Shown here piece after piece: positions 13,045-34,749 of a stretch of 36,036 nucleotides of DNA. The position numbers were made by a program, and so were the translations under genes. The notes beneath the pieces were generated by a model. It saw only the letters and a program-made list of their open reading frames with translations. It did no database searches and was not told where the DNA came from. This stretch comes from a virus. The stretch covers positions 1 to 36,036 of IMG/VR virus record IMGVR_UViG_3300037520_000368; one strand, given 5' to 3'. Each line of letters begins with the position of its first letter. Within the stretch, counting starts at the first letter, position 1.

Positions 13045-16000
13045 ATGGCACGACTGTTTAACGAGCAGGAGTTTGAAGATTCGTTCAATGAGAACGATCT
13101 GCTGAACATCGTCGGCGGCGTCCCCGCACCAACTCCTGCACCCGCTCCCGCTCCGTTTAACTTCAAGGACTATATTTATCAGGGCGGGGCAGACGACACT
13201 GTCGCCACTCAGCGCGGCCTGGACTACATCCGCGAGCAAGGGCTTACTCCGCAGCAAGGTGTTGACCTGTTTAACACCAATCTCGGCACCAACTTCACGC
13301 TGGATGATTACTACCGGGCGACCGGGACACAACCGCCTGCTGCGCCTGTTGCTGCACCTGCGCCTTCACCTGCGCCTTCACCTGCGCCTGCACCCGCTCC
13401 GGCTCCTGCACCTGTTGCTGCTCCTGCCACAGTCTACGACCAACTTGAACAAGCGGGCCTGACAGAAGGGCCGGTAGAGCCGTTTGTCCCTGCGCCTGCT
13501 CCCGCTCCGGGGACGGCACCGGCTCCTGCGCCTGTGGCGGGTCCTGCTGATACTTGGGGCAAAGAATATGAGTCGCAACCGTTAGGCGACGGCAGTTATT
13601 CAATAAGTTCAATCCCAAACATTACTTTGCCTCCTGGGTTTAATTGGCAAGAATACGTCGATAAGAACCCGGACTTGAAGCAAGCGGGCATTGATACTCA
13701 AGCAGAGGCAGAGCGGCATTACCGTCTTTATGGTGTAAACGAAGGTCGTCAGGGAGTACCGGTTACGTCCCTGCAAGACGCCATCAACTTTGCCAAAACC
13801 AACATCACAAATCAGAATGCATTTGTTGATGCAGGCGAAGCGGGCCCACAGGGCGTTGCTCGGCAGATCGGCCAATACACCATTTCGCCCACTGGATACG
13901 GAACTGTTCAGGGTTACGACATTGCCGGGATAAGCGGGAAAACAGGTTCTGCCCTCCCATTTGCACCGGCAGGTACACCCTACGAGCAGATCGTAAGGAC
14001 GGACGCAAACGGCAACATCGTCGGTTATCAGATGAATCTGAAGACCGGTGGTGACAGTGGTTACTACGTTGATCTGGATGCTAAGGGCAATATCACCCGG
14101 ATTGACAACTACGATGAGTCTGAGAGTTGGCGCAAACCTGCCGCCATGTTTGCCACATTCCTTGGGGCGACGGTTGGTGTTCCGCAGATAGGGGCGTGGC
14201 TGTCTGGCGGTACGCTCGCAGCAAATTCCGCCGGAGCCGCTGCTCTTGGTGGCGCTGCTCTTGGTGGCGCAAACGCGGCTATTGCAGGGGCGGAAGGGGC
14301 AGACATCCTTAGAGCCGCAACGGTTGGGGCGGCGGCGGCTGGCGCTGGGCAATTTGCCGGTCAGTATGCTAATCAAGCAGTTAACAACCTTGGTCTCACG
14401 GGTACCGCAGCGGGCTCTGCTATTACGGGAGCCGCCACAGGTGCAGCGTCTGCATTGCCACAGGCAATTGCAACGGGGGACTTCTCTAACGTCTTCCAAC
14501 AGGCCGCACTTGGCGGAGCCTCGTCAGCGGCAGGCAGCGCCCTGTCATCTACGCTTTCTGAGTCCGGGTTCACTCCAAAACAAATTCAGGGCGCATTCAC
14601 GATTGCGGGGCAGTTGGCATCTGGGAATCTTGACCCCAGGACGCTCATTAGCGCCTTGGGTGATTTGAGCGGACACCCCGACGCCGATATTGCTGCCCGA
14701 GCAGCCCGCACCGGTCTTGCATTGAGCAAGGCAGACCTTAGCAATCCGGCATCCTTGAGTTCACTTCTTGGTGAATTGAACAGTCTTGCCAAAGCAGTTG
14801 ATGATAAAGGTATCAAGCGACTGCCCGGCACCGTTCAAGGACCGCAAGTTAAAGTTACGGGGGAGGACCTTACATCAGTCGGCGCAATAGACGAAGATGA
14901 ATTGGTCAACATCATTCGCAGCACAGAACTCCCCTCTGTATCCACGGGCGCGGGCACTGCTGGGACAGCAGGCACGACGGGAACGACAGGGCAGACCGCA
15001 GGCACTACGGGCCAGTTCTCTATCGGTAATCAACTTGGCACCGGCGCATACATCACACATGAAAATCAGGCCAGGGCAGCAAACTTGGTCAGCGACCTTG
15101 TAGATGTAAACAAACTTGATCGCGGCACGCTGTCGCGGATGGCAAGTTATATCTACCTGAATGATGAGCAAGGTCTGCGTGATGCTGTCAGCCAGTGGAT
15201 GAGCGGAAATACTGGCGGTGTTCTGCCGACCAGTACGAAACTGACCGCCGACCGTGTCGCTGATGCAAGTTACTTCACGGACGACCCAAACGCAGACATC
15301 TTTGCCACAAACAAGCCGCCTGGAACCCCGGGTGTCAACTATGAAGTGGGTTTCTCAGATGCCGGTGTGCCCGGCGCTTTGGGGCAGCGTGTTGGTGTCA
15401 CTGGCAAGTTCTTGCCAACTGGCGGAGCAGATACGGCAAATGCAGCAATTGATGCGCTTGGCGGAGGGACGGCTGCAACTGCATTTGTTGGGGGCATGGC
15501 TGAACTGGCCCAAGACATTAAGGGCGTCCACAACTGGCTAACCAATGCAGACCCCAACAGCAAAACCAACAGAATGCTGCGGGAGGCGGTTAGTGCTTCG
15601 GGAGACAGAGTCCCAGAAGATATTCAAAACCAGATAACAAACTGGTCACAAGGCGTACGTGACGCAAAAGGTTTTATAGATACTACAAAAGCCATATTTG
15701 GTGGTGCTGTAGATAACCCAAAGGGCGTTGGATTCTTAATACTAAAAGAGGGATTCCAAGAAGGTCCCCCTCTTGCTCTTGGTTTGGCCGCTAAGGGCGG
15801 CGCACTGGCGCTTAAATTTGGTAAAGAAATAGCCACAAAACTTGGCATAAGCGTCGATGCCGGTATAGATATTGCTGAAAATGCTGGGGCTAGTTGGTCA
15901 CAGGGATATTCAGAGCGCAGAGCAAACCTTGATTCGTTGGTAAAGTCGGGCAAAATGACCGAGGACCAAGCCGATCAGGAGGCTCGTCGGGCAGGTTCAA

Positions 16001-18129
16001 ATGCGCTTCTTAATGCTGCACTAACAACCTTTGGTGTGAGCAAGGCTGCGGGCGGCGATCCGGCAACGCAAACAATTATTCGCAAATCATTTACTGATGA
16101 TGCGGGAAATGCCACCGTATCAACTTCCACAGCCCTAAGCAATCTTGCAAAAACTGTCGGCAAAGAATTTGCGACCGAGACAACAGAGGGGTCGCTGACA
16201 AACATTGGCGTAACAGGTGCAGTCAAGGGTATTGGAAATGTTACGCTTGCAGACATCGGCCAAGATATTGCTGAGGGAGCCCAGGAGGGTGTAATTGGCG
16301 GCGGCGTTGCGGGCGGGTTGAATTTGCCTGGGACGGCAGGTGATATAGGCCGTTCTGTCACCGGTGGAGGCACGCCTCCCGGTGGCACGGCTCCGACCAC
16401 GCTCACAACCCCTGTTATTACAGGTCAAGGCGGACAAGTCTTGACCCTTGGGGACGTGCTTGGCACGCCTAGCACAACAGTTAAGACCGGATCGGCATTT
16501 GACCTCGGCGGCTTGGACAGCCAAACCATCATCAATGATTATGTAAACGAGGTTCTTGGTTCTGGTGCTCAATCGGTCACGATCAATCCTGACACAGTGA
16601 TTCTGTCTGGCACAGATTCCAACGGTAACTCCGTATCCCTGACGGCTGCGGACTTGGGATTGGGCCAGACTGTGACAGCAACGCCTGGGGCAACCGGCGC
16701 GACAGGAAAAACCGCCGCCCCCGCTCCAAGTCCTGCACCATCTCCCGCGCCTGCGCCGAGTCCGGCTCCTTCTCCTGCGCCTTCGCAAGCGCCGAGTCCT
16801 GCTCCCGCCCCGGCAACTGATGCCGCAAACGAAGCGGCGGTGTTTAATGCCGCCTCACAGGAAGGTGTAAACCTGCCAAGCGGTTGGTTTGGGATGTCTG
16901 GCGCAGAAAAAGCGAGTTGGCTCTCTCAAAACAATGTTTCGTCCGCAACCATTACAAAGGTGGCGGGCAGTGATGGATTGGCCGCTTTGAAGGCGGCGGG
17001 ATACGTTGATCTCACAACTGCCGCAGGGCCTGCTCCTGCTCCAGGGCCCGCACCCGCTCCTTCTCCGGCTCCTGCGCCTGAGCCTGCTCCGGCCCCGTCT
17101 CCGACGCCAAGTCCGGCTCCCGCGCCCACAGCAACACCTGCCCCGGCGCCTAGTACAGCCCCGTCTCCTGCGCCTAGCGTAGCACCTGCGCCTAGCGCAA
17201 CCCCGTCACCGGCTCCTTCTGTTGCGCCTAGTCCTGCACCAAGTCCTGCCCCGGCACCAAGTCCCGTTCCGGCGCCCAGTCCGGCGCCTTCTCCTGTCCC
17301 TGCGCCGAGCCCTGCACCTGCTCCGTCTCCGGCACCCGCCCCGAGTCCGACGCCTGCGCCCGCACCCAGTCCCGCTCCCGTCCCGTCTCCGGCACCTGAG
17401 CCATCTCCTGCACCAAGTCCGGTGCCTACACCTTCTCCTGCACCGGAGCCTAGCCCTGCTCCATCTCCCGCTCCCGAGCCAAGTCCTGCCCCGGTGCCTG
17501 CGCCTAGCCCCGCTCCGGCGCCAACGCCTACCCCAAGTCCTGCGCCTGAGCCATCTCCCGCGCCTGCTCCGGCGCCCGAGCCATCTCCGGCACCGACTCC
17601 TTCGCCCGCGCCGAGCCCCACGCCTAGCCCGACGCCTTCTCCGGCTCCGAGTCCTGCGCCTACGCCGAGTCCGGCACCGGCGCCTACGCCTACGCCTCCG
17701 GCGGAGTCTCCTACTCCTCCTGTGCCGCCACCACCACCTCCCCCGGTGCCGCCGACGCCTCCAAAGCCGCCGGTTAAACCTCCGGTGAGGCCACCTGTCA
17801 GGCCGACAGCAGCGCCTCGTCCAACTCCGCGCGCCATGCCTGCTCAGGCGGTCAGCCAACTTGCGCAACTGCCTGGATACGAAGCCTTTTATTACGGGGC
17901 ACTCAAGTATGGGCAGCCAGGAAAGCGGGCGCAGTCGATGGCCGAGGTCACCGATTTCCAAGGCCGCGCAGCAGCCGCACGGGATGCTATGGAACTTGCG
18001 CTAGAGGGGTCTGCGGACGAAAATGTGACGCAGGATGCCGTGGATCAAATCATTGCGATGTCGCAGGAAAATCCTGCTGCGACCATCGAAGAACTGATGC
18101 AAATCATTGAGGGCAGAAGAAATGGATGA
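13045..18129 (+). CDS. Giant Pro/Ala-rich virion-internal protein (1694 aa)
   Basis: This protein starts at ATG 13045, four bases after the previous stop. Low-complexity Ala/Pro segments occur near residues 30-37, 92-165 and 1225-1255 and most strikingly at about 1326-1590, where AP/SPAP units repeat. Between them lie [16 protein letters not shown] with [13 protein letters not shown] (about 198-238), a short module also seen in bacterial surface or secreted proteins. A Gly/Ala-rich hydrophobic region follows (about 365-500) that could cross or disrupt membranes, then a long helical and Gly-rich region (about 500-1200). A conserved-looking helical end (about 1590-1694, [15 protein letters not shown]) closes the protein. 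The size, hydrophobic core and place in a run of internal protein genes suggest an ejected or tape-measure-like virion protein. The family is not recognised. Confidence 0.65.
17023..17770 (+). repeat. Imperfect Ala-Pro/Ser-Pro codon repeat within the 1694-aa protein gene
   Basis: About 750 bases encode almost only Pro, Ala, Ser, Thr, Glu and Val, in units such as [10 protein letters not shown] and PEPSPAP, followed by a poly-Pro stretch and [14 protein letters not shown] at the end. Codons vary (ccg, cct, ccc, cca), so the DNA repeat is imperfect. The frame is intact throughout. Such segments form extended polyproline II linkers and change length easily by slippage. Confidence 0.9.
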
Positions 18130-21287: not shown

Positions 21288-24200
21288 ATGCCGGTCTACC
21301 AATATAAAGGTCAGTACTACGAACTCTCGGAAACTGACCCGGCGGCAGCCAAGGCGAAAATCCTGTCTCACCTTGGTGAGCAAGCACCGGCAGCGCCCGT
21401 CAGTCCTCCTCAAACTCTTGCCGCACAGGCCGGGCTGGATCAGCGTCCGTCCACGCCTGCGGGCTTCATGCTCCGCCCTGAGTTCGTGGAGCAAGTCCGT
21501 TCGGAGTACGGCAACTTTCCTCCTGAGCAGCGCCGTGCCGCTTTGCAAGAAGCCTCTATGGGCCGTGGCGTCCGTGCGGATGCAGCCAAGAGAATCCTTG
21601 CCGACCTAGCCGTTGAGGATCAGCGCCGCCGTGAGGTGACCCAAGGCCGTGAGGGCCTGATGGGCATCCTAGCCGCCGCGCAGCAGCAACCTGCACCCCG
21701 TCAGCCTGCGGCACCAGCAGGTCCGGCTCCTCGTGTGCAGTTCCCTGATGTCTCCCCCACGATTGGGGACATCATGGACATGGTTCCTGAGCAGGAGCGC
21801 ATTCAGCGCCGTCTTGCCCAGGATGAAGCCGCCCGTACTTTGGAAGCGGCAGAGTCAAGCATCGAGGCCACCCGTGCCCGCGAGCAAGAGCGGATGGGTG
21901 GGCTTGAGCAAATTGGCAAGTCCTTTACTGAGGTTGGCATTCCGACCGCAGAGGCCGGCGCCCTTGGCCTTACCGCCGTCGCGCAACAGGCGCAGATGGC
22001 AAAGATTGGCGACCAACTCAAGGAACTGGAAGCCCAGGGTCAAGGCAATACGCCGCAGGCTGACCGGCTCCGCAAGGTGCTTGAGCACTACTCCAGTCGG
22101 CAACAGGTTTATCTCGGTGACCTTGCACAGACCCAGGCTAAGTTGAGCACTGCTCCGGTCTATCGCGGTGTCCGTGAACTGACTGAAGCCGAGACATTTA
22201 CCGACGCTGCCAAGGCGTTTGCCCGCAATCCGGTCAGCATCGTGGCAAACCTGACGGCGCAGTCCTTGCCGTCCATGCTGCCCGCTTTGGTGCTGGGCGT
22301 CATCAATCCCGCGTTGGGTGTTGCTGCTATGGGCGGCAGTTCCTACGGGGTTGAGTTTGGAAATGAACTGCTTGGCTTTGCCAGGGAGAAGGGGTTTGAC
22401 ACCACCGATCCCAAGCAGATGGCTCAGTTCATGCAGAACTCTGAACTGCTCCGTGAGGGCGTGAACCGCGCCGGGACGAAGGCCGGTATCGTTGCCGCCG
22501 GAGACATGCTGCTGACTGGCTTGGCCGCGAAGACGCTGGTGCCCAAGCGGATCACCGGGCCTGTTGCCAAGAACGTCACCAATGTCGGCGTCCAGATGGG
22601 CGTCCAAGGCGTTGGTGGTGCTGGTACAGAAGCCTTGGCTCAGTACGTCACCACAGGTGAGATCAAGCCCGGCGAGGTGGTGGCTGAAGCCGTTGGCGAA
22701 CTAGGTGGCGCTCCTGCTGAAGTGTTCACCCAAACCGCCCAGGCCCGTCGTGAGGCCCGCGCTGCTCAGGCCGCACAAGCCGCGCAGCCTCCGGCGCCTG
22801 CCGCTCCAGTTCCTCCCGCTCCAGTTCCTCCCGCTCCTGCCGCTCCCGCTGAACGGATTGAGCCGACCTTCGATGAGCGCGCTGTTCCTCCCGCTCCTGC
22901 CGAGCGAGTTGAGCCTACGCTTGAGGGCGCTCCCGTTCCTTCGCCTGCCGCGCAAACCATGCGTGAACAGCAGGACGCTATTGAGAAGATGGAGCGCGAG
23001 GCTCTGAAACTGGAGCCCGGTGAGCCGGTGCAGGAAGCGGCCAAGGATGCGCTTCAGATTGAACCAGAGCCGCCGCAGACTGAACTGCCCCGTCAGGCGG
23101 TCGTCGAGGTTCCGGTCGGTCAACTAAAACTGTCAGAGGATGTGCCCCAGTTCAAGATGGGTGCTGACAAGGCAGGCATCGTTGAGCCGCTGGGTGGCAA
23201 GTTTGAGCGCACGGGTGTTGCGCCTATTCAGGTGTGGCGCAGGAATGATGGCCGGATGGAGATCATCTCCGGTCGGCATCGCTTTGATCTTGCGAAGCGC
23301 AGTGGCGAGAAGACCATCCCGGCGCAGATTCACGATGAATCCAAGGGATTCACCCGTGACATGGCTGCTGTATTGGATGCGGAACTCAACATCCGTGACG
23401 GTCAAGGAAAGGTAAAGGACTATGTCAACTACTTCAAAGGCACAGGGCTCGACCGGGAAACGGCAAACGCACGAGGACTACTGGCAAGAGCGCCGGGCAA
23501 GCGGGCTTTCTCAATCGCAAATGACGGAAGTGATGAACTCATTACCGGTGTCCGTGCCGACCAAATCCCTGATGAGGCGGCGTACCTCATCGCAATCAAC
23601 GCGCCCGGCGATGCCCGGCTCCAAAGCGTAGGCATTAAGGCGATTGCTGATGGCAAGTCTGCTGCGACTGCCGTCAACATGATGCAGGCTGTTCGCGCCC
23701 TGGCTGGGGAAGCGGACACCACGACCGACATGTTTGGCTTTGACGACTCCGCCATAAAAGAGGCGGAGGAGATGGCCAAGATCGCCAGTCGCAAGCAGAA
23801 GGAAATCCAGACCCGTCTGTCTGCCATCTCTGGTGCGGCCCGCAATCCGCAGTTGGCTGCTTCCGAGGGTATCGACATCCGTGATCCCCAGGCTGTCAAC
23901 AACCGCATCAATGAACTGCGGCAGATGAAGGCGTCTTGGGACAACTGGTCTACCAATCCTCAACTGGTCGCTGAAGTTCGTGCCGAGCGTGGCGTTGCGC
24001 CCCCGGTGCTAACTACGCAGACTCCCGAAGAGTTGCGCGCCAAGGCCGAGCGTGAAGAGCGCGCCCGCAAGGAAGAGCAGGCCAAGCCTGCCGAGGTTCC
24101 GCCTGCTGAAGAGTTTGTGCTGACCGGCAGTGAGCGTGCTGCTGATGAGGCTGCGGCCCGTGGTCAGATGGAGTTGGCTCCTGCCGAAGAGAAGGCTGAA

Positions 24201-27200
24201 GCAAAGCCCGGTGAGGCGGTGGACGAGAACGACACCGGATTCCGTGGAGCCTCTGACGAAGAGGTGAGTGAAGTTGCTGGCGCCTTCAAGGATGCCAAGC
24301 AAAGCCAGGAAGATGAGCGGGAAACCCGAGTCTTTGATCCGCCTGCCAAGAATGAAGTTGTGCGGATTGAGGACAAGGTCCGTGTCTACACCAAGGATCG
24401 TGGCTACATGACCTTGGACGAAGCCAAGCAGGAAATTGCCAAGTGGCGGCAACACGCCTTTGAGCAGGGCGATACCGGCGTCAACGCCAACAAGGTTGTC
24501 CTATCTCTGTTTGACCTGACGGGCGAATGGAGCATGCCATGGGATGCGGCTGGGTATCAGGTCTTCCGGTTTGATATTCAGACCGACCCTGAGTACGGGG
24601 ATGTCAGCAAGTTTTCCGGTGACTTCTTCAACGACATCTTTGGCGCATTTGATGGTCAGGACATCTACGCAATCCTGGCCGCTTGCCCCTGCACTGACTT
24701 TGCTTCCAGTGGTGCCCGTCACTTTGCCGCGAAGGACGAGGATGGCCGCACGCTAGAGTCGGTCGAGTTGGTCCGTCAAACCTTGGCGACCATCGAATAC
24801 TTCAAGCCTTCCGTGTGGGCGATTGAGAACCCTGTCGGGCGGATTGAGAAACTGACCGGCCTGCCGCCCTGGAGGTCTTCGTGGAACCCGAATCACTTCG
24901 GTGATCCGTACACCAAGAAGACTCTGCTGTGGGGTCGGTTCAATGCCGACATGCCGATTGCCCCTGTCGAAGCGACAGAGGGATCGAAGATGCACCGCAT
25001 GTATGGCGGCAAGTCCAAGGCCACCAAGAATGCCCGCAGCGTAACGCCGGAAGGATTTGCCTACGCCTTCTTCATGGCGAACAACGCTGTGGACAACCCG
25101 GTGCTGGCGATCTCCAACAAGTATGACTTGATGGATCGTGCTGTCTTTGAGGAGGCGGTGAATGCGGGCATGACCTACGAGGAAATCTCGGAGGTGATTG
25201 ATGATCCGTATTACTTTGACAAGGACTACAAGCGGGCCGAGGCTGAACTGCGCGAGGCGATCAAGTCCGGCGGCAAGCCCAAGGAACAAACGCTGTTCAG
25301 CATTGAGCGCAATCTTCCTCCGCCCGAGTACGACTTCTCATCCCAGCAGCCTGTTGCGGGCGAGCAGTCCCGCTCTCCGTCGCTCAAGCGCAAGGTCAAG
25401 ACACTGAACCGTCAGCGCGAAGACAAGAAGATCACGCCAGAGAAGTTTGTTGAAGAGGTTGATGCTGCCGTCAAGGCTGATGAGGAAAGAAAATACTACA
25501 AGGCTACCGCCAAACGAGTGCGCGGCGCGGACTACATCCGTCAGCGTTTGCTTGAGGCCAAGCGTCGTGGCGAACTCTCTGAAGAGGGAGTAAATCTAGC
25601 AGAGTGGTTCATCCTTCAGAACGAGAATCTGGTGGGCGACCTGGGTGTTGCCATCAAGAGCCCAAAGAAAGGTGGCACCGCCGGTTTCTACGAATCTTCT
25701 CGGCGAATCATGGCGCTGATGAAGGAGTCTGGCAACGAAGCAACCATTGTTCACGAAATCCTGCATCACACTGAGCGGATGATGCCCGTGGAGATGCAAG
25801 ATGCCATCCGCAAAGAGTGGCTGCGCTCACTGGTCTCTGCTCAGAAGAAGGCCAAAACCCCGGAGGAGAAGTTCTTCTTCGAGGCGGTGATGAACCATCA
25901 CTTTGGTAGCGGCACCATTGGGGATTTGAAAGATGCTGCCGCGTTCACCTTGCGTCTGTCAAAGATGGGGCTTGACACTGGCCTGTATGACAGAAGTTAC
26001 CGCATCGCCATTGAGATGTTGCGTCGCGGCATGGTCAAGATGAGCGACTACCAGTTCGTCAACCCGTCAGAGTTTTGGGCAGTCAACGCATCAGAAATTG
26101 TGAAGGGGCGTTACGAAGCCATCCAGGGTGGATTGCTTGCGCGCATGAAGAACTGGCTCAAGGAACTGGGCCAGAAGATCAAAGGCATCTTTGGTCTGAA
26201 GTCTGATGCGCCGTTGATCAAAGCACTTAATAGTCTGAGCGAAGGCGACGGCAAGTTTGTCAGCAAGGACATGCTGTCTTCGCAGGAAGACTACTTGCAG
26301 ATTGGGAAAAACATTTACGGGCGCAAACCTCTTGCGGCCTGGACGATGCCCGATGAAACCAAGTTGGATGCTGACCTGATCTATCGGTTGCAGAACAAGC
26401 AGATCGACCTCAAGCGCGCTGTTGATGCAATTGATGAGGCGGCTGGTGGCATTGAGGATCGGTGGGACGCCTACCTGCAAGAAGAGTTGTATCACGGTCG
26501 CACGGCCAGGGAGACTGCAAACTTCCTGCGCGAAGAGGTTCGTCCTCTGCTAGAGGCAATGAACGATGAAGGCGTTTCTATCGCTGAAATTGATGATTAC
26601 CTGCACAACCGGTTTGCAGAAGAGCGCAACATCCAGATCGCCAAGATCAACCCGGCATATCCCAACGATGGAACGCCCGGCTCTGGCGGCTCTGGTATCG
26701 ACACGTCTGATGCCCAGGCTTACCTGAACAACCTGACGCCCGAGCAGCGCGCGAAGTATGAGCGGATTGCCAAGATGGTGGATAACATTACCAAGGGCAC
26801 CCGCGAGTATCTGGTGGACAGCGGACTTGAAGAGCGGTCAACAATTGATGCTTGGGAGAAGACATATCCTTCGTATGTCCCGCTGAATCGTGGCGATATT
26901 GAGTACACCACCACGATTAGCACGGGTACCGGGCAAGGCTATAGCGTTCGCGGACCGTCCTCTCGCCGTGCAACGGGCTCTCGCCGTACCGTTGTTGACA
27001 TCCTGCCCAACATCATCATGCAGCGCGAGCGCGCCATCGTGCGTGGCGAGAAGAACCGCGTATCGGTGGCAACGTATGGGTTGGCATTGCAAAACCCCAA
27101 CCCAGAGGTGTGGCTGGCGGTAAACCCACAAGCCAAAGAGTCCAAGAAAAAAGCGATCAATGAACTGATCAGCATGGGGCTAACCAAGCAAGACGCCGAA

Positions 27201-29081
27201 GGTCTGATGGAGGAGCCCACCGTTACTGTCGTTGACCCGTTGACGGGATTGGTAACCAAGCGGGTAAATCCTGCGCTGCGTGGCGCGGACAACGTGCTTG
27301 TGGCTCGGGTCAACGGCCAGGATCGTTACGTCTTCTTCAACACGCAAAATCCCCGTGCTGCGCGGATGGTTGCTTCGTTGAAGAACCTAGACGCCGACCA
27401 ATTGGGAACGGCCTTATCGTTGATTGCCACAGGAACTCGGTGGTTCGCCAGCGTCAACACGCAGTACAACCCAATCTTTGGGGTGTTTAACTTCTTCCGT
27501 GATTTCCAAGGTGCCGCCGTTCAGTTGTCGGGCACGCCGCTGGCAAATGAGAGAAAGAAGATTCTCTGGCCTTCGAACATCGCTGGGGCCATGTCCGGCA
27601 TTTACTCCACGCTTCGCAAGGAGCGCGCCGGGTTGCAGCCTGCCACCAAGCAGTGGGCCGATCTGTGGCAAGACTTCCAGGCTCAGGGTGGGCAGACGGG
27701 ATACCGCGACATGTTCAGCCGTTCGCAAGAACGTGCCACTGCGTTGCAGCGCGAGATCGACCGGATGAACCAAGGCGTGGTTCGTCGTGGGGGTAACGCA
27801 ATCTTTGGATGGCTTGCCGACTACAACGAAACCCTTGAGAACGCTGTTCGCTTGAGCGCATACAAGGCTGGTCTTGATGCGGGCATGAGCAAGGAGCGCG
27901 CGGCTAGTGTTGCCAAGAACTTGACGGTCAACTTCAACCGCAAAGGTCAGATTGGAGTGCAGGCAGGTGCGCTGTTTGCCTTCTTCAACTCTGCTGTTCA
28001 AGGTACAACCCGGCTGCTTCAGACTGTTGCCAAGATGGAGCGGCCTGGGGACATCAGAAGCCTGCGTCTGACGAAGGCCGGTAAAGTGGTGATCTATGGT
28101 GGCCTGCTGCTAGGAACCGCCCAGGCTATTGCCTTGGCCGCGATGGGATATGACGAGAACGAGCCGCCTGACTTTGTGAAGGATCGGAACCTCATCATTC
28201 CGCTTGGCGATGGCAAGTATTTGGCTTGGCCGCTGCCGCTGGGCTATCACGTTATCCCGGCTGTTGCTCGCATCCTGACAGAGTGGATGATTGCTGGCGG
28301 CAAAGACCCGGCCAAGCGAATTGCCCATCTTGCTGATGTGATTCTTGATGCCTTCAACCCAATTGGCAATGCGGGCTGGTCTGCTCAGTCGATTTCCCCG
28401 ACTGTTTTTGACCCCCTCGTTGCGCTGTTTGAGAACAAAGATTGGACCGGCAAGAAGATTGCAAAGGAAGATGTCAGCAAACTGGACCCAACTCCGGGGT
28501 ACACCCGCGCCAAGGAGAATGCTTCTTGGATCAGCCGTCAGTTGTCGTACTACCTGAACCTTGCTTCTGGTGGAGACAAGGATAAGCCTGGGGAGTTCAG
28601 TCCAACGCCGGATCAGATCGACTACTTGATTGGTCAAGTAACGGGTGGTTTGGGCCGAGAGATTCTTAAAGCGGCCAAGACCACAGAGGCAATGATCACG
28701 GGCGAGGAACTTGCGCCGTACAACATCCCGTTGGCAGGCCGTTTCTATGGCGACACCAAGGCGGGGTACGCAGAGTCGTCTCGGTTCTACAAGAACCTTG
28801 AGGAACTGAACATCCTTGAGAACCAACTCAAAGGTCGCCAGTCCCGCAAGGAATCGGTGACCGAGTTCGTCAAGGAGAATCCCAAGTTGCGGCTGGTGGA
28901 GTCAGCCCGGGAGACCGAACGCAACATCCGCGAACTTCGCAAGCAGCGTAATGATCTGGTTGAGAAGGGGGCTTCCCGTGAAGCGGTGAAGGCAAAGGAA
29001 AACCTGATAACCAACCAGATGAAACGGCTGAACGATCAGGTCAAGAAGTTAGAGGAAACCCCTAGGAAACCTGCAAACTAA
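21288..29081 (+). CDS. Giant polyvalent protein: ParB-like, C5-methyltransferase-like, metallopeptidase, LPD38
   Basis: A 2597-residue multidomain protein. Visible in order: a short N-terminal module (YQYKGQYYELSE); helices; hydrophobic Gly/Ala segments (about 308-365 and 405-475); an Ala/Pro linker (about 490-530); a ParB/DdrB-like domain (about 602-810, IISGRHRFDLAKRSG near 660); and a C5-cytosine methyltransferase-like domain (about 1065-1266). The latter has ACPCTDFASSG with the Pro-Cys motif near 1131, ENPVGR near 1180 and KKTLLWGRF near 1209. A zincin metallopeptidase follows (VHEILHH, His1489-Glu1490-His1493), then helices and a LPD38-like region (about 2160-2340, NLTVNFNRKGQIGVQAGALF, IIPLGDGKY), and a C-terminal coiled coil. 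This is the architecture of phage polyvalent proteins, proposed to be injected with DNA and to counter host defence. Activity is not proven, but the key residues are present. Confidence 0.85.
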   Translation: MPVYQYKGQYYELSETDPAAAKAKILSHLGEQAPAAPVSPPQTLAAQAGLDQRPSTPAGFMLRPEFVEQVRSEYGNFPPEQRRAALQEASMGRGVRADAAKRILADLAVEDQRRREVTQGREGLMGILAAAQQQPAPRQPAAPAGPAPRVQFPDVSPTIGDIMDMVPEQERIQRRLAQDEAARTLEAAESSIEATRAREQERMGGLEQIGKSFTEVGIPTAEAGALGLTAVAQQAQMAKIGDQLKELEAQGQGNTPQADRLRKVLEHYSSRQQVYLGDLAQTQAKLSTAPVYRGVRELTEAETFTDAAKAFARNPVSIVANLTAQSLPSMLPALVLGVINPALGVAAMGGSSYGVEFGNELLGFAREKGFDTTDPKQMAQFMQNSELLREGVNRAGTKAGIVAAGDMLLTGLAAKTLVPKRITGPVAKNVTNVGVQMGVQGVGGAGTEALAQYVTTGEIKPGEVVAEAVGELGGAPAEVFTQTAQARREARAAQAAQAAQPPAPAAPVPPAPVPPAPAAPAERIEPTFDERAVPPAPAERVEPTLEGAPVPSPAAQTMREQQDAIEKMEREALKLEPGEPVQEAAKDALQIEPEPPQTELPRQAVVEVPVGQLKLSEDVPQFKMGADKAGIVEPLGGKFERTGVAPIQVWRRNDGRMEIISGRHRFDLAKRSGEKTIPAQIHDESKGFTRDMAAVLDAELNIRDGQGKVKDYVNYFKGTGLDRETANARGLLARAPGKRAFSIANDGSDELITGVRADQIPDEAAYLIAINAPGDARLQSVGIKAIADGKSAATAVNMMQAVRALAGEADTTTDMFGFDDSAIKEAEEMAKIASRKQKEIQTRLSAISGAARNPQLAASEGIDIRDPQAVNNRINELRQMKASWDNWSTNPQLVAEVRAERGVAPPVLTTQTPEELRAKAEREERARKEEQAKPAEVPPAEEFVLTGSERAADEAAARGQMELAPAEEKAEAKPGEAVDENDTGFRGASDEEVSEVAGAFKDAKQSQEDERETRVFDPPAKNEVVRIEDKVRVYTKDRGYMTLDEAKQEIAKWRQHAFEQGDTGVNANKVVLSLFDLTGEWSMPWDAAGYQVFRFDIQTDPEYGDVSKFSGDFFNDIFGAFDGQDIYAILAACPCTDFASSGARHFAAKDEDGRTLESVELVRQTLATIEYFKPSVWAIENPVGRIEKLTGLPPWRSSWNPNHFGDPYTKKTLLWGRFNADMPIAPVEATEGSKMHRMYGGKSKATKNARSVTPEGFAYAFFMANNAVDNPVLAISNKYDLMDRAVFEEAVNAGMTYEEISEVIDDPYYFDKDYKRAEAELREAIKSGGKPKEQTLFSIERNLPPPEYDFSSQQPVAGEQSRSPSLKRKVKTLNRQREDKKITPEKFVEEVDAAVKADEERKYYKATAKRVRGADYIRQRLLEAKRRGELSEEGVNLAEWFILQNENLVGDLGVAIKSPKKGGTAGFYESSRRIMALMKESGNEATIVHEILHHTERMMPVEMQDAIRKEWLRSLVSAQKKAKTPEEKFFFEAVMNHHFGSGTIGDLKDAAAFTLRLSKMGLDTGLYDRSYRIAIEMLRRGMVKMSDYQFVNPSEFWAVNASEIVKGRYEAIQGGLLARMKNWLKELGQKIKGIFGLKSDAPLIKALNSLSEGDGKFVSKDMLSSQEDYLQIGKNIYGRKPLAAWTMPDETKLDADLIYRLQNKQIDLKRAVDAIDEAAGGIEDRWDAYLQEELYHGRTARETANFLREEVRPLLEAMNDEGVSIAEIDDYLHNRFAEERNIQIAKINPAYPNDGTPGSGGSGIDTSDAQAYLNNLTPEQRAKYERIAKMVDNITKGTREYLVDSGLEERSTIDAWEKTYPSYVPLNRGDIEYTTTISTGTGQGYSVRGPSSRRATGSRRTVVDILPNIIMQRERAIVRGEKNRVSVATYGLALQNPNPEVWLAVNPQAKESKKKAINELISMGLTKQDAEGLMEEPTVTVVDPLTGLVTKRVNPALRGADNVLVARVNGQDRYVFFNTQNPRAARMVASLKNLDADQLGTALSLIATGTRWFASVNTQYNPIFGVFNFFRDFQGAAVQLSGTPLANERKKILWPSNIAGAMSGIYSTLRKERAGLQPATKQWADLWQDFQAQGGQTGYRDMFSRSQERATALQREIDRMNQGVVRRGGNAIFGWLADYNETLENAVRLSAYKAGLDAGMSKERAASVAKNLTVNFNRKGQIGVQAGALFAFFNSAVQGTTRLLQTVAKMERPGDIRSLRLTKAGKVVIYGGLLLGTAQAIALAAMGYDENEPPDFVKDRNLIIPLGDGKYLAWPLPLGYHVIPAVARILTEWMIAGGKDPAKRIAHLADVILDAFNPIGNAGWSAQSISPTVFDPLVALFENKDWTGKKIAKEDVSKLDPTPGYTRAKENASWISRQLSYYLNLASGGDKDKPGEFSPTPDQIDYLIGQVTGGLGREILKAAKTTEAMITGEELAPYNIPLAGRFYGDTKAGYAESSRFYKNLEELNILENQLKGRQSRKESVTEFVKENPKLRLVESARETERNIRELRKQRNDLVEKGASREAVKAKENLITNQMKRLNDQVKKLEETPRKPAN

Positions 29082-32116: not shown

Positions 32117-32478
32117 TAATTCTTCCTCTTGGTGATGACTGCCTTGCGGGCGGTTACATAGGAGACACCCGTGCGGCGGGCGATCTCAGCAATGGACAGG
32201 CTGCGGCTTTCCTTCAAACTGAGCAGGGCTTGCAGGGCATCACGACGCTCCTTCAGAGAAGTCTTGGGCTTCGCTGCCTTTGGCTTCTTGGCCTTCTTGA
32301 TGATCTCCTCAACCTTCTTAGATGCCTCCTCCTTGCTTACCGTCCGCTCACCAGTGATGATGTTCTGCTCGAAGCGTTGCTGGCGCAGGGCGTTCTGCAA
32401 CGACAACGCTCGCAGGCTGATGGCTTCCATCAGGAAAGGGAAGTCGGTTTCGGGGATGGAGAGATGGATCATGTTCAT
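32116..32478 (-). CDS. Helix-turn-helix protein
   Basis: The frame extends upstream to 32544, but ATG 32478 overlaps the stop of the nuclease gene and has AAGGAA five bases before it, so I start there (120 residues). The N-terminal 45 residues are helical (LMEAISLRALSLQNALRQQR). A Lys/Ala-rich basic linker follows (KKAKKPKAAKPKTSLKERRD). The C-terminus is a helix-turn-helix, SLSIAEIARRTGVSYVTARK, with the usual Ala-x3-Gly spacing. The protein probably binds DNA. It could regulate the early operon or assist recombination; its place between two recombination genes leaves both open. Confidence 0.75.
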   Translation of the reverse strand: MNMIHLSIPETDFPFLMEAISLRALSLQNALRQQRFEQNIITGERTVSKEEASKKVEEIIKKAKKPKAAKPKTSLKERRDALQALLSLKESRSLSIAEIARRTGVSYVTARKAVITKRKN

Positions 32479-33344
32479 GTTGATTCCTTGAGATAGTTTT
32501 GGTACTGAGAACAAAAGGCCGAGACTTGGCAGAATGATTCGCACCGAGTCCGACCGCCTTGGCGCACCTCGATAAAGTAGCCTTTACCTGGGTTTGCCTT
32601 TTCCGCTTCCTCCTGTGTCTCATGGACACTCTTGGCGCGTTTGCCGCCTTCTTTCATAACGGCATAGGTTGTGGGCTTCTCCCACATTTCTTCAGCGGTG
32701 CATTCAGGCATTCCTTCTCCTGAATGAATCGCAAAGAATGCTTCGTTGTGCAGGCGCAGCCGCTCGGCTACATACTGCTCACGCTGTTCATACGGCCACA
32801 GCGGGATCGAGATGACCGTGACCGGAGACTTGGGATAAGTGTCCTTGGTCTGTGCATCCCGGCGTGACCAGTCGCGGATGATGGCAACGATCTGCAAGGC
32901 TTTGACTGGCTGCTTCTTCACCCGCTCAAGCAACCATGCGTAGGTGTTGAGTTGGTTGTGCCAGTCCTGCTTCTCGTTCATCACGGCCCAGGCACCCGTG
33001 ACCTTGTAGTCGGAGATGATGGTGCCGTCTTCGTAGACTTCTTGCAGGTCGATAGCGCCGCTGACCTTCCATCCCTCGAACTCGGTGAAGATGCGCTCCT
33101 CCACGATATGGTGGGCGTCCTTGCCGTGCTCCAGAACATTGTGGACGGCAGAGCCGAAGAGCGACCAGACCATGTCTGATGCGTCTTCCTCAAGGTCGTC
33201 CCAATGCTTGCGCTTGAGGGCCACAATCCTGGGGCTGTTGAGGATTTCGGTGGCGCTGATCTGCGCGTCGCCCTTGCTGTACTGTGGGCGGCGGATCACA
33301 TTGACGAATGTGTCCGGCAGGTTGAAGTTGTTGGTGAGTTTCAT
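32475..33344 (-). CDS. PD-(D/E)XK nuclease, RecB/Cas4-like, with Cys cluster
   Basis: This 289-residue protein starts at ATG 33344 with AAAGGAC four bases upstream. RecB-family motifs are in order: GSAVHNVLEHG (His68), SGAIDLQEV (Asp99), ISDYKVTGAW (Asp112-Tyr-Lys114) and QLNTYAWLL (Gln131, Tyr135). These metal-binding and catalytic residues are intact. Cys215, Cys268, Cys272 and Cys278 (RCESFCQVSAFC) may hold an iron-sulfur cluster as in Cas4/AddB-type nucleases. The first Cys is in an unusual place, after rather than before the nuclease core. As first gene of the operon with an annealing protein and ssb, it is the likely exonuclease that makes single strands for recombination. Confidence 0.85.
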   Translation of the reverse strand: MKLTNNFNLPDTFVNVIRRPQYSKGDAQISATEILNSPRIVALKRKHWDDLEEDASDMVWSLFGSAVHNVLEHGKDAHHIVEERIFTEFEGWKVSGAIDLQEVYEDGTIISDYKVTGAWAVMNEKQDWHNQLNTYAWLLERVKKQPVKALQIVAIIRDWSRRDAQTKDTYPKSPVTVISIPLWPYEQREQYVAERLRLHNEAFFAIHSGEGMPECTAEEMWEKPTTYAVMKEGGKRAKSVHETQEEAEKANPGKGYFIEVRQGGRTRCESFCQVSAFCSQYQNYLKEST

Positions 33345-33423: not shown

Positions 33424-33768
33424 ATGGAATTTACGATGCCCTGGCCGCTGAAGGAACTGAGCCCGAACGCCCGTGTTCACTGGGCGCAGTTGGCGAAGGC
33501 GAAGAAGTCTTACCGGCAGGCTTGTGCCTGGACGGCTCTGAGCCAAGGGGCTAGGCCGATTGAAGCCAAGGGCTTGCATGTGACGCTGACCTTCTATCCG
33601 CCCAGCCGCAGGGCCATTGATCTGGACAACTGTCTGGCGCGCTTCAAGGCCGGGATAGACGGGCTGGTGGATGTCCTAAAGGTGGACGACAGCAAGTGGC
33701 GGATCACGATCCAGAAGGCCGAGGAAGTCGGGGGATTTGTCAAAGTCCAGATTGATCCTTTGCCTTGA
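33424..33768 (+). CDS. rusA: RusA-family Holliday junction resolvase
   Basis: This 114-residue protein has the RusA pattern: SPNARVHWAQLAKAKKSYR near the N-terminus, FYPPSRRAIDLDNCLARFK (57-75) with the acidic DLDN motif (Asp66, Asp68), GIDGLVDVLKVDDSKW (78-92) with Asp88/Asp89, and a final strand VGGFVKVQID. RusA dimers cut four-way junctions made by recombination; the Asp cluster binds the metal. Length is normal. It is read rightward, opposite to the rest of the recombination operon, from its own promoter, with no strong ribosome binding site (only AGGT). It is followed by a hairpin-rich 3' UTR and a strong terminator. Confidence 0.9.
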   Translation: MEFTMPWPLKELSPNARVHWAQLAKAKKSYRQACAWTALSQGARPIEAKGLHVTLTFYPPSRRAIDLDNCLARFKAGIDGLVDVLKVDDSKWRITIQKAEEVGGFVKVQIDPLP

Positions 33769-33798
33769 CCGGTGGAGGGCGGAGCAGGACAATGGGGG

Positions 33799-33843
33799 TA
33801 CGGCAGAGATGCCGTGGTTCAAGTTGTTCCTCCTCTCCTTGAA
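33799..33843 (+). other. Hairpins in the rusA 3' UTR
   Basis: Two hairpins lie between the rusA stop and its terminator. One has ACGGCA (33800-33805) paired with TGCCGT (33810-33815) around a GNRA-type GAGA loop. The other has TTCAAG (33818-33823) paired with CTTGAA (33838-33843) around a 14-base, pyrimidine-rich loop. With the terminator hairpin they make a compact three-hairpin tail of about 100 nt that could stabilise the mRNA or be cut out as a small RNA. Confidence 0.5.
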
Positions 33844-33854
33844 GTTGTGAGTTC

Positions 33855-33877
33855 CCCCGCTTCGGCGGGGTTTTTTT
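33855..33877 (+). terminator. Rho-independent terminator after rusA
   Basis: CCCCGC (33855-33860) and GCGGGG (33865-33870) enclose a TTCG tetraloop and are followed by seven T (33871-33877). This is a textbook strong intrinsic terminator for the rightward rusA transcript. Confidence 0.95.
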
Positions 33878-33884
33878 CGCCTGC

Positions 33885-33914
33885 TTGACACAGACTAGTA
33901 GTGCTTGGTACATT
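33885..33914 (+). promoter_or_regulatory. Sigma70-type promoter of the pseudoknot RNA
   Basis: TTGACA (33885-33890) is a consensus -35 box, followed after 18 bases by TACATT (33909-33914), four of six matches to -10. The start would be near 33920. It begins eight bases after the T-run of the rusA terminator, so the following RNA appears to be a separate transcription unit. GGTA-CATT-TACC (33907-33918) is a small inverted repeat over the -10 box and might be an operator. Confidence 0.65.
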
Positions 33915-33919
33915 TACCG

Positions 33920-34038
33920 TACTGCACGAGTGGCATCGAGCAGGAAGAACCGCTAGATCAGACTCCGACCCCGTATGGGGTTCCATCCTGCCACTACAGG
34001 ATGCGATGCCACCGGGGTCTGTTCTAGCGGTTTTTTTT
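33920..34038 (+). ncRNA. Structured small RNA with a pseudoknot and built-in terminator
   Basis: About 118 nt with its own promoter and T8 end and no credible ORF. Nested fold: 33948-33957 (AACCGCTAGA) pairs with 34023-34032 (TCTAGCGGTT), 10 bp. After a one-by-one mismatch, 33959-33967 pairs with 34013-34021, 9 bp with one G-U. Inside are hairpins 33968-33981 (ACCCC/GGGGT, four-base loop) and 33984-34003 (CATCCTG/CAGGATG, six-base loop). The remaining internal segment, 34004-34012 (CGATGCCAC), is a perfect 9-bp complement of 33930-33938 (GTGGCATCG), upstream of the outer helix. This forms a pseudoknot abutting both the second hairpin and the inner helix. Almost every base from 33948 to 34032 is used. 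The outer helix plus T8 (34031-34038) doubles as terminator. The strand order differs from HDV-like ribozymes. Family and function unknown. Confidence 0.75.
34023..34038 (+). terminator. Terminator arm of the pseudoknot RNA
   Basis: TCTAGCGG with a run of eight T (34031-34038) forms the 3' side of the long-range 10-bp helix whose 5' side is 33948-33957. The loop of this terminator is the whole internal fold, so termination may depend on how the RNA folds. Confidence 0.75.
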
Positions 34039-34098
34039 CGCCCGTACTCCGCACGATAGCAAGCACTCAAACCTTGGTGGCGCGGAAGGGAAGAGGGA

Positions 34099-34430
34099 CA
34101 CGGTATGCAACCGTGGGTTTAGTGAAGGTGTTAGCAAAGGCTGATTTGCCTGCCGGAACGTGCAGATTCCACCGTCGCCAAGTGGAACTCCCTGGAGGTG
34201 GCTCCTCCCTTGCGGTTCAAAACGCAAGCCGACAGCAGTTAAATGGTAAGCCGGAGATCAGCACCGGCCACCTTCACTAAGCCCACGGGCTAGGGGGCAG
34301 TTCCCGAACAATCCGTGCGGCTGGTCGTATCGTCAAGCCGGGGGCATACGGTTCAAATCCGTAGCATGACGATCCCTTCGGGGGGTGACGCCTGATCCCT
34401 TCCTACCTCCCATCGTGGGGGTAGGGGGGT
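34099..34430 (+). ncRNA. Large structured RNA candidate with a 20-bp long-range helix
   Basis: There is no credible ORF. 34111-34130 pairs with 34269-34288 over 20 bp with a single G-U. Inside are hairpins GCAAA/TTTGC (34134-34149), CTGC/GCAG (34150-34165), TTCCAC/GTGGAA (34167-34187), GGAGG/CCTCC (34194-34208), CTTGCG/CGCAAG (34209-34228, loop GTTCAAAA) and GCCGG/CCGGC (34250-34268). The helix end CCGTG (34111-34115) can instead pair with CACGG at 34099-34103, and CACGG at 34284-34288 can pair with CCGTG at 34313-34317, so two folds compete. The 3' part has a T-arm-like hairpin and a strong stem (34402-34425). No good promoter is seen; the 5' end is uncertain and the 3' end may reach the terminator at 34486. 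I found no match to tmRNA, RNase P RNA or intron cores by eye. Confidence 0.6.
34329..34373 (+). other. tRNA T-arm/acceptor look-alike
   Basis: TACGG (34347-34351), TTCAAAT (34352-34358) and CCGTA (34359-34363) form a five-bp stem with a seven-base T-loop exactly as in tRNA. The following GCATGAC (34364-34370) pairs with GTCAAGC (34332-34338) except for one A-A mismatch, and ATC/GAT extends the stem outward. The eight bases between (34339-34346) are too few for D and anticodon arms and there is no CCA. It is a tRNA-like minihelix, not a normal tRNA gene. Confidence 0.5.
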
Positions 34431-34462
34431 CTTTGGGTGATAAATACTAAATATATGGGATT

Positions 34463-34486
34463 GGCCCCTTTTGACGGGGCCTTTTT
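34463..34486 (+). terminator. Rho-independent terminator at the end of the RNA island
   Basis: GGCCCC (34463-34468) pairs with GGGGCC (34476-34481) around a seven-base loop and is followed by five T (34482-34486). It works rightward only; on the other strand the stem is followed by AATCCC. The T-run touches the stop codon of the leftward gene ending at 34486, so it insulates that gene from rightward transcripts. Confidence 0.85.
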
Positions 34487-34749
34487 CATGCCGCCGGGCG
34501 TTGGCCTTCTACGGCCTTTGGCGGGACATCTTGCGGGGCGAACAGTCGTCCTTCCTTACCGCACGGCCCACGGGTTCGGTTGTCGATGCAGGTTCCGATC
34601 CCCTTGCTGGCGGTGAATGGATTGACGGCGCATCGCATGACCAATGCGCCCGAGTACAGGCGAGGACGGTCGACGCTCGGTCGGTAATGTTTGCACTGCT
34701 TACAGAGTTCACGATCCTTGTCCCATGTGTACTGCGGGAGTTTGAACAT
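34486..34749 (-). CDS. Small Cys-rich protein, possible zinc-binding
   Basis: This 87-residue protein starts at ATG 34749, with AAGGA nine bases upstream inside the preceding gene. Cys residues are arranged as CKQCKHY (16-22), RCAVNPF (about 39-45), GTCIDNRTRGPCGKEG (about 52-67), a pattern typical of small phage zinc-binding proteins, perhaps one site from the first pair and the last two Cys. No enzyme motif. It overlaps the preceding gene by 41 bases. It is the last gene of this leftward cluster. Confidence 0.7.
   Translation of the reverse strand: MFKLPQYTWDKDRELCKQCKHYRPSVDRPRLYSGALVMRCAVNPFTASKGIGTCIDNRTRGPCGKEGRLFAPQDVPPKAVEGQRPAA

Follow-up and report, generated by a model that had tools for sequence, protein, structure and literature searches.

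HDV-like ribozymes have a 7-bp helix at the 5′ end that crosses a long closing helix enclosing a hairpin (P1, P2, and P3, respectively), and the packaging RNA of phage phi29 is a compact molecule of ~120 nt whose complementary loop varies between phages. GOLLD and ROOL are orphan structured phage RNAs, often found beside tRNA islands, that contain pseudoknots and kissing loops and in which covarying pairs turned out to be intermolecular (PMC12286853). In phage HK022, putRNA is a folded RNA at or near the start of an early transcript (PMC9378689). Here, we describe a small RNA of ~115 nt encoded on the plus strand (33920-34038) near one end, the phage early region, of a 36,036-nt stretch of viral DNA (IMG/VR record IMGVR_UViG_3300037520_000368; hereafter, the window). 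Judged from its sequence and that of its relatives, it is probably a structural phage RNA coupled to a larger partner.

The elements of the small RNA follow one another in the order P0 (with PKa in its loop), P1a, P2a, P3, P4, PKb, P2b, P1b, and U-run (Table 1). A preliminary description, made from this one sequence, had proposed a consensus −35 element, a T8 run, an outer and an inner helix, two hairpins, and a pseudoknot; each of these was found where it had been placed, and what that description had overlooked was the P0 hairpin, the tertiary pair 33929/33982, and the larger RNA downstream. The pseudoknot itself had to be redrawn. The 9-bp pairing originally proposed is present in the window, where GTGGCATCG (33930-33938) can pair with CGATGCCAC (34004-34012), but evolution backs 7 bp of it (33930-33936/34006-34012). 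The two extra pairs of the window (33937-33938/34004-34005) compete with the conserved P0 inner stem (33927-33928/33937-33938), whose pair 33928/33937 closes the kissing loop. At the level of the family, the pseudoknot is a 7-bp kissing pairing of the P0 loop with 34006-34012, together with the tertiary pair 33929/33982.

Table 1. Features of the small RNA locus and its surroundings in the window
Feature	Position	Strand	Comment
289-aa protein ORF	32475-33344	−	Related to a family with a PD-(D/E)XK nuclease match
RusA-like ORF	33424-33768	+	Our own reading; no Pfam match
Intrinsic terminator (predicted)	33855-33877	+	CCCCGCTTCGGCGGGG followed by T7; directly upstream of the unit
Sigma70-type promoter (predicted)	33885-33914	+	TTGACA 33885-33890, 18-nt spacer, TACATT 33909-33914, extended TG; 10/12
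P0 5′ hairpin	33922-33943	+	Outer stem 33922-33925/33940-33943, inner stem 33927-33928/33937-33938, 8-nt loop 33929-33936
Tertiary-pair base	33929	+	First P0 loop base; pairs with 33982, directly 3′ of P3
PKa, kissing loop strand	33930-33936	+	Pairs with 34006-34012
P1 5′ strand	33948-33957	+	Pairs with 34023-34032 (10 bp); outer helix and candidate terminator stem
P2 5′ strand	33959-33967	+	Pairs with 34013-34021 (9 bp); inner helix
P3 hairpin	33968-33981	+	ACCCC-GTAT-GGGGT
P4 hairpin	33984-34003	+	Sequence and length variable
PKb	34006-34012	+	Partner of the kissing loop; abuts the P2 3′ strand
P2 and P1 3′ strands	34013-34032	+	
T8 run	34031-34038	+	3′ end of the small RNA
Larger structured non-coding RNA	34042-34440	+	Boundaries approximate; conserved in relatives
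5′ domain of the larger RNA	~34042-34090	+	H-type pseudoknot
Variable hairpin module in the larger RNA	34115-34284	+	Closing helix 34115-34130/34269-34284
Terminator 3′ of the larger RNA (predicted)	34463-34486	+	
ORF bounding the non-coding stretch	34486-34749	−	

The nested fold of the window sequence, with the pseudoknot left out, had an energy of −64.7 kcal/mol compared with −34.5 ± 3.5 for shuffled sequences (z −8.5). In 125 of 20,000 mononucleotide shuffles (0.6%), the 5′ arm still had a perfect 9-bp complement elsewhere in the sequence; thus, the pseudoknot of one sequence alone is only moderately unlikely to be a chance match, and it is through comparative evidence, from covariation, that the pseudoknot was confirmed.

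To assemble relatives, we used a nuclease protein query, sequence patterns, and a covariance model. The query fetched 72 loci, and in the nine that were read where blastn had aligned the small-RNA stretch, the small RNA was kept in eight, while the ninth (L010) holds another folded RNA. A first pattern, which fixed only P2 and P3 sequences, returned at least 119 stretches from viral contigs; at least 96 of the 143 distinct pattern windows in all collections had the complement of the pseudoknot partner and a T-run, and all of these were viral. The covariance model (R1), built without the pseudoknot, yielded an alignment of 89 members (A2). At least five T's were demanded when members were selected, and the pseudoknot was named in neither search pattern nor model. 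Weaker relatives in the R1 search (E about 1e-6 to 1e-2) have another sequence and one inner hairpin instead of two, and a second pattern taken from their P1/P2 internal loop, again without naming the pseudoknot, returned at least 120 stretches. A 7-nt loop strand with a perfect 7/7 Watson-Crick partner next to P2b was present in 119 of the 124 distinct matches listed, compared with a chance expectation that we estimate at ~8% for the positions searched. The T-run-positive matches listed (n = 114) carried 41 distinct loop 7-mers; some second-pattern matches, such as L268, look like chance. Taken together, there are at least ~200 distinct members in two subfamilies. In the first viral pattern scan and the 89-member alignment, there was one copy per locus. 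By eye, further sequence types with a similar layout lie between a promoter and the larger RNA in L010/L230, L233, and L244.

The small RNA is phage-specific. Among 84,980 bacterial and archaeal genomes, none of 38 pattern matches passed the test for pseudoknot and T-run, and plasmids gave no match. Model R1 likewise had no match in 399 genomes of one bacterial order, a search run without a positive control. No cultured phage was found among the relatives, the only phage records being two derived from metagenomes (Manatee Spring).

We scored all column pairs of the 89-member alignment by APC-corrected G-tests, using as a null the substitutions replayed at random places on a FastTree tree. Against this tree-based null, the two top covarying pairs of the whole RNA were pseudoknot pairs, columns 36/134 and 34/136; columns 36/134 were AU in 31 members, GC in 26, CG in 17, and UA in 12, with 3 mismatches. 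A third pseudoknot pair (columns 33/137), the P0 pairs at columns 22/47 and 28/37, and columns 29/94 also lay above every null score. Columns 29/94 correspond to the tertiary pair 33929/33982, which was 92% paired (UA 38, CG 22, AU 15, GC 2). For the full structure, 95.9% of cells in the 89 members were paired compared with 79.5% when shuffled and 35-51% with shifted partners, and there were 679 double changes compared with 193 when shuffled. It had been stated beforehand that helices not preserved by compensating changes in relatives, above all the pseudoknot, would speak against the fold; instead, the pseudoknot was paired in 99.0% of cells, with double changes in five of its seven pairs. 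P1 and P2 together were 99.2% paired, with double changes in 11 of 19 pairs; P4 was 90% paired, with double changes in all seven; and the outer and inner stems of P0 were paired in 82% and 91% of cells, respectively, with changes on both sides in all pairs. Covariation was thus seen in every helix save P3, which hardly varies, in part because its sequence was specified in the search pattern. P2 contained exactly one G·U pair, at either of two adjacent positions (33963-33964 in the window), in 88 of 89 members (CU in 51, UC in 37); this single pair may prevent P2a from pairing wrongly with the GGGGU in P3.

These data bear directly on whether the element is a chance fold around an ordinary terminator, or else a protein-coding stretch, a reading that the comparative data have already refuted and that we now find hardly credible. 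It could draw on the 0.6% of shuffles with a 9-bp match and on a reverse-strand ORF that recurs in 45 loci. Apart from the covariation, member lengths fall into all three residue classes modulo 3, and stops interrupt all six frames in most members; we rejected protein coding on these grounds.

The small RNA appears to have its own promoter and terminator, as the preliminary description had held. A sigma70 promoter match of at least 8/12 was present in 86 of 89 members, whereas shuffled controls mostly reached 6-8, and the −10 element mostly ends 4-10 nt upstream of P0 in these members. The U-run was near-universal in the alignment, for which at least five T's had been a selection requirement. 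P1 with its immediately adjoining T8 forms a plausible terminator stem; it went unflagged by a simple terminator scan because that scan permits short loops only. It is from such sequence signals that promoter use, termination, and readthrough, and likewise the abundance of the small RNA, are inferred. Alternative helices, by which the outer helix would act as an RNA-only attenuator, found no support: none of the top-ranked pairs in the 89-member alignment formed a covarying antiterminator helix. For this reason, and because a non-coding RNA lies downstream, a riboswitch or RNA-only attenuator was rejected.

The larger RNA starts a few bases past the U-run, and by its sequence the small RNA is the first half of what looks like a two-RNA unit. 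A larger RNA is present downstream in nearly all loci: of ~97 downstream segments, 84 were linked by similarity, and most of the others formed small recurring groups. The larger RNA has several subtypes. In 107 sequences, its 5′ pseudoknot (loop-to-strand) and a hairpin covary, examples of covarying strands being CTCCGC/GCGGAAG, CTCCA/TGGAA, and TGACT/AGTCA. The hairpin module at 34115-34284 is missing in some relatives and lies elsewhere in others; variable hairpin modules (e.g., GATGGTG...GCCGGAGATCAGCACCGGCCACCATC) were seen inside the larger RNA or between the two RNAs (L060, L133), and also in L142. In L228 (MW202545; 100.1 bits) and L167 (94.6 bits), the larger RNA is the Rfam family Betaproteobacteria-1 (RF02932). 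The subtype in the window matched neither RF02932 (cut-off 49.4 bits) nor other Rfam families. Betaproteobacteria-1 was above cut-off in 4 of the 399 genomes of one bacterial order, presumably Burkholderiales to judge from the centre genome, an Alcaligenaceae bacterium. Upstream of these bacterial copies, no small RNA of this kind was evident, which suggests that the larger RNA can exist without it. Because RF02932 occurs there, our guess is a Burkholderiales-type host. There is little room for a promoter of its own between the two RNAs, and the larger RNA is therefore most likely made by readthrough.

In relatives, the loop of the small RNA is complementary not only to its own partner strand but also to a 7-mer ~4-7 nt upstream of the larger RNA. 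The mean pairing score at this second site was 4.99 compared with 4.19 ± 0.09 when loops were shuffled between loci, a shuffle that models relatedness incompletely. The positions of the second site cluster, and the sense control was flat. The excess persisted with one sequence per distinct loop (none of 300 shuffles reached it, in five draws) and without the GTGGAA loops, and exact 7/7 second sites with different loops were found in L104, L142, L257, L357, L046, L296, and L024. In the window, the second site pairs weakly, and a score of at least 6 is reached by only 30 of 97 members; therefore, it supports coupling in the family and not for the window phage. Tentatively, the two RNAs could form a switch in which the hypervariable loop either closes its own pseudoknot or docks on the partner copy before the larger RNA made by readthrough. 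If this were so, mutual regulation or assembly at an early stage of infection would be achieved by two RNAs that bring no protein of their own.

The same observations could be read in terms of a cis-acting leader, the main rival explanation, which we regard as doubtful. The small RNA would then control whether the larger RNA is synthesized, either as a regulated terminator or by binding polymerase in a put-like manner; the pseudoknot, formed before P2 and P1, would time termination, and the larger RNA might feed back via the loop-complementary site. Consistent with such a role, the small RNA begins at the expected transcription start and ends in P1 and the U-run, after which comes an apparently promoterless larger RNA; one kind of larger RNA is preceded by small RNAs that share a topology but belong to different sequence families; and the loop is complementary, in relatives, to the beginning of that RNA. 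However, an antiterminator helix is missing from the top-ranked covarying pairs, and P1 and P2 are very stable without the pseudoknot. Moreover, the second loop partner lies past the termination point and so cannot act in the first pass on the same molecule.

Covariation is blind to whether pairing occurs within a molecule or between molecules. Fully pairing 7-nt loops are typical of kissing complexes, and the loops of the small RNA pair over all 7 nt and stay perfectly complementary while being hypervariable. The loops could pair between molecules, giving dimers or rings like those of the phi29 packaging RNA or cages like those of GOLLD and ROOL, possibly with the larger RNA as well. We consider this unlikely and keep it in play because covariation cannot separate the two cases and because it was between molecules that covarying positions of GOLLD and ROOL were found to pair (PMC12286853). 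Against it, the lengths permit an intramolecular fold, with a median linker of 3 nt and, by our estimate, the hairpin and pseudoknot lying beside P1 and P2. Moreover, no packaging gene constantly adjoined the small RNA across the loci compared.

The genomic surroundings were examined for further clues. In the window, the non-coding stretch spans from the RusA-like ORF to the ORF at 34486-34749 and holds the predicted terminator, the promoter, the small RNA, and its T8; the terminator at 33855-33877 would insulate the unit against transcription from upstream. A further small RNA could lie between the RusA-like gene and this terminator (33795-33877, plus strand), where there is a C/U-rich TCCTCCTCTCC stretch with its own promoter-like site (33765-33793); L010 has similar sequence, and Rfam shows a faint similarity to Betaproteobacteria toxic sRNA and to anti-hemB. 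Elsewhere in the window are very long ORFs at 21288-29081 (2597 aa) and 13045-18129 (1694 aa), the second of which has long Pro-Ala-Ser repeats. Neither ARAGORN nor Rfam found a tRNA or tmRNA in the window, and we rejected a tRNA/tmRNA reading of a T-arm-like hairpin at ~34346-34374, for which both were empty and whose motif is lost in relatives. Of 60 loci scanned, 6 contained tRNA genes, as did MW202545 (L014, L016, L084, L092, L093, L144, and L228), and these genes always lay just upstream of the small RNA and on the same strand. Across the loci compared, the small RNA borders modules for replication and recombination. No protein family constantly adjoined it; its neighbors, in varying order, are resolvase-like, nuclease, primase-like, helicase, and PAPS-reductase-like or 2OG oxygenase genes.

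Because of this position among replication and recombination genes, and because the small RNA is transcribed toward a conserved G-rich stretch downstream, we weighed a replication origin with a priming transcript of the ColE1 RNA II type, in which the folds would serve primer formation. This appears very unlikely: there is no GC-skew turning point at the small-RNA locus in the window, the compensatory changes within the small RNA are explained by RNA folding, and the U-run would halt most primers.

The explanation of the whole that we favor, with modest confidence, is a terminated structural small RNA that leads a two-RNA unit. Host polymerase would recognize the sigma70-type promoter and transcribe the unit early; it would mostly stop at P1 and the U-run, releasing a stable small RNA, and some readthrough would give the larger RNA. 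The small RNA would work as a structural RNA and not through a coded protein, and it may bind a host component, or its 5′ loop may dock, in cis or in trans, at the site that precedes the larger RNA. It is short, has an apparent promoter and terminator of its own, and contains a complementary pairing that varies freely, which makes compensatory-mutation tests easy.

When compared with known systems, the small RNA in the window had no match at gathering score among the 4227 families of Rfam 15, and none was found in 13 related loci, where tRNA and RF02932 were detected and neither overlapped the small RNA. Relaxed matches (MIR3712, asX2, Betaproteobacteria toxic sRNA, anti-hemB, and RsmY) were far below their cut-offs, at chance level, and were dismissed. 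These searches agree with the initial view that the RNA was undescribed, and we found no described match in the part of the literature that was covered; candidate structured RNAs of viruses and phages were reportedly catalogued in 2023. Its topology had also been said to differ from HDV and ToxI-type RNAs, and this was borne out. The 7-bp pairing, closing helix, and hairpin resemble P1, P2, and P3 of HDV-like ribozymes, but the 5′ strand of the small RNA sits in a hairpin loop, and PKb joins the P2 3′ strand directly, with no P4 or J4/2 strand with the catalytic C; together with the empty Rfam search, this led us to reject an HDV-like ribozyme. A ToxI-like type III antitoxin was rejected as there is neither a constant adjacent endoRNase toxin gene nor tandem ~35-nt pseudoknot repeats. 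In the phi29 packaging RNA, two hairpin loops pair between molecules to form a ring on the portal, whereas in the small RNA one loop pairs with a junction strand; this different pairing and the lack of an Rfam match speak against membership. The putRNA of HK022 has ~70 nt and two stem-loops without a terminator and acts in cis on polymerase, at the beta′ zinc-binding domain, to pass terminators, and the small RNA does not belong with it, as its fold differs, with a kissing pseudoknot and an end in P1 and the U-run.

RF02932 comes into the comparison through its position, as it follows the small RNA as its partner in MW202545/L228 and L167; it corresponds to the larger partner and not to the small RNA itself, which is thereby linked to a larger-RNA family that includes an orphan Rfam entry. 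More generally, Rfam lacks families of virus-specific RNAs that do not occur in the bacterial genomes searched. In its place and make-up, the small RNA most recalls, by analogy, the orphan RNAs of tRNA islands, GOLLD and ROOL, as it too is an orphan phage RNA with a kissing pseudoknot and in some loci has tRNA genes just upstream; the window itself lacks a tRNA. Covariance models for GOLLD and ROOL gave no match in the window and 13 related loci, so membership was rejected, and the dimensions differ: GOLLD and ROOL are 600-800 nt long, whereas here a small terminated RNA of ~115 nt precedes an RNA of ~250-450 nt. We regard the small RNA as an RNA family new to Rfam and to the literature covered; the wider class, orphan structured RNAs that phages carry close to tRNA islands, was already known. 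GOLLD and ROOL have been a long-standing puzzle, beside which the small RNA stands as a smaller and very widespread phage RNA whose fold is resolved to single pairs.
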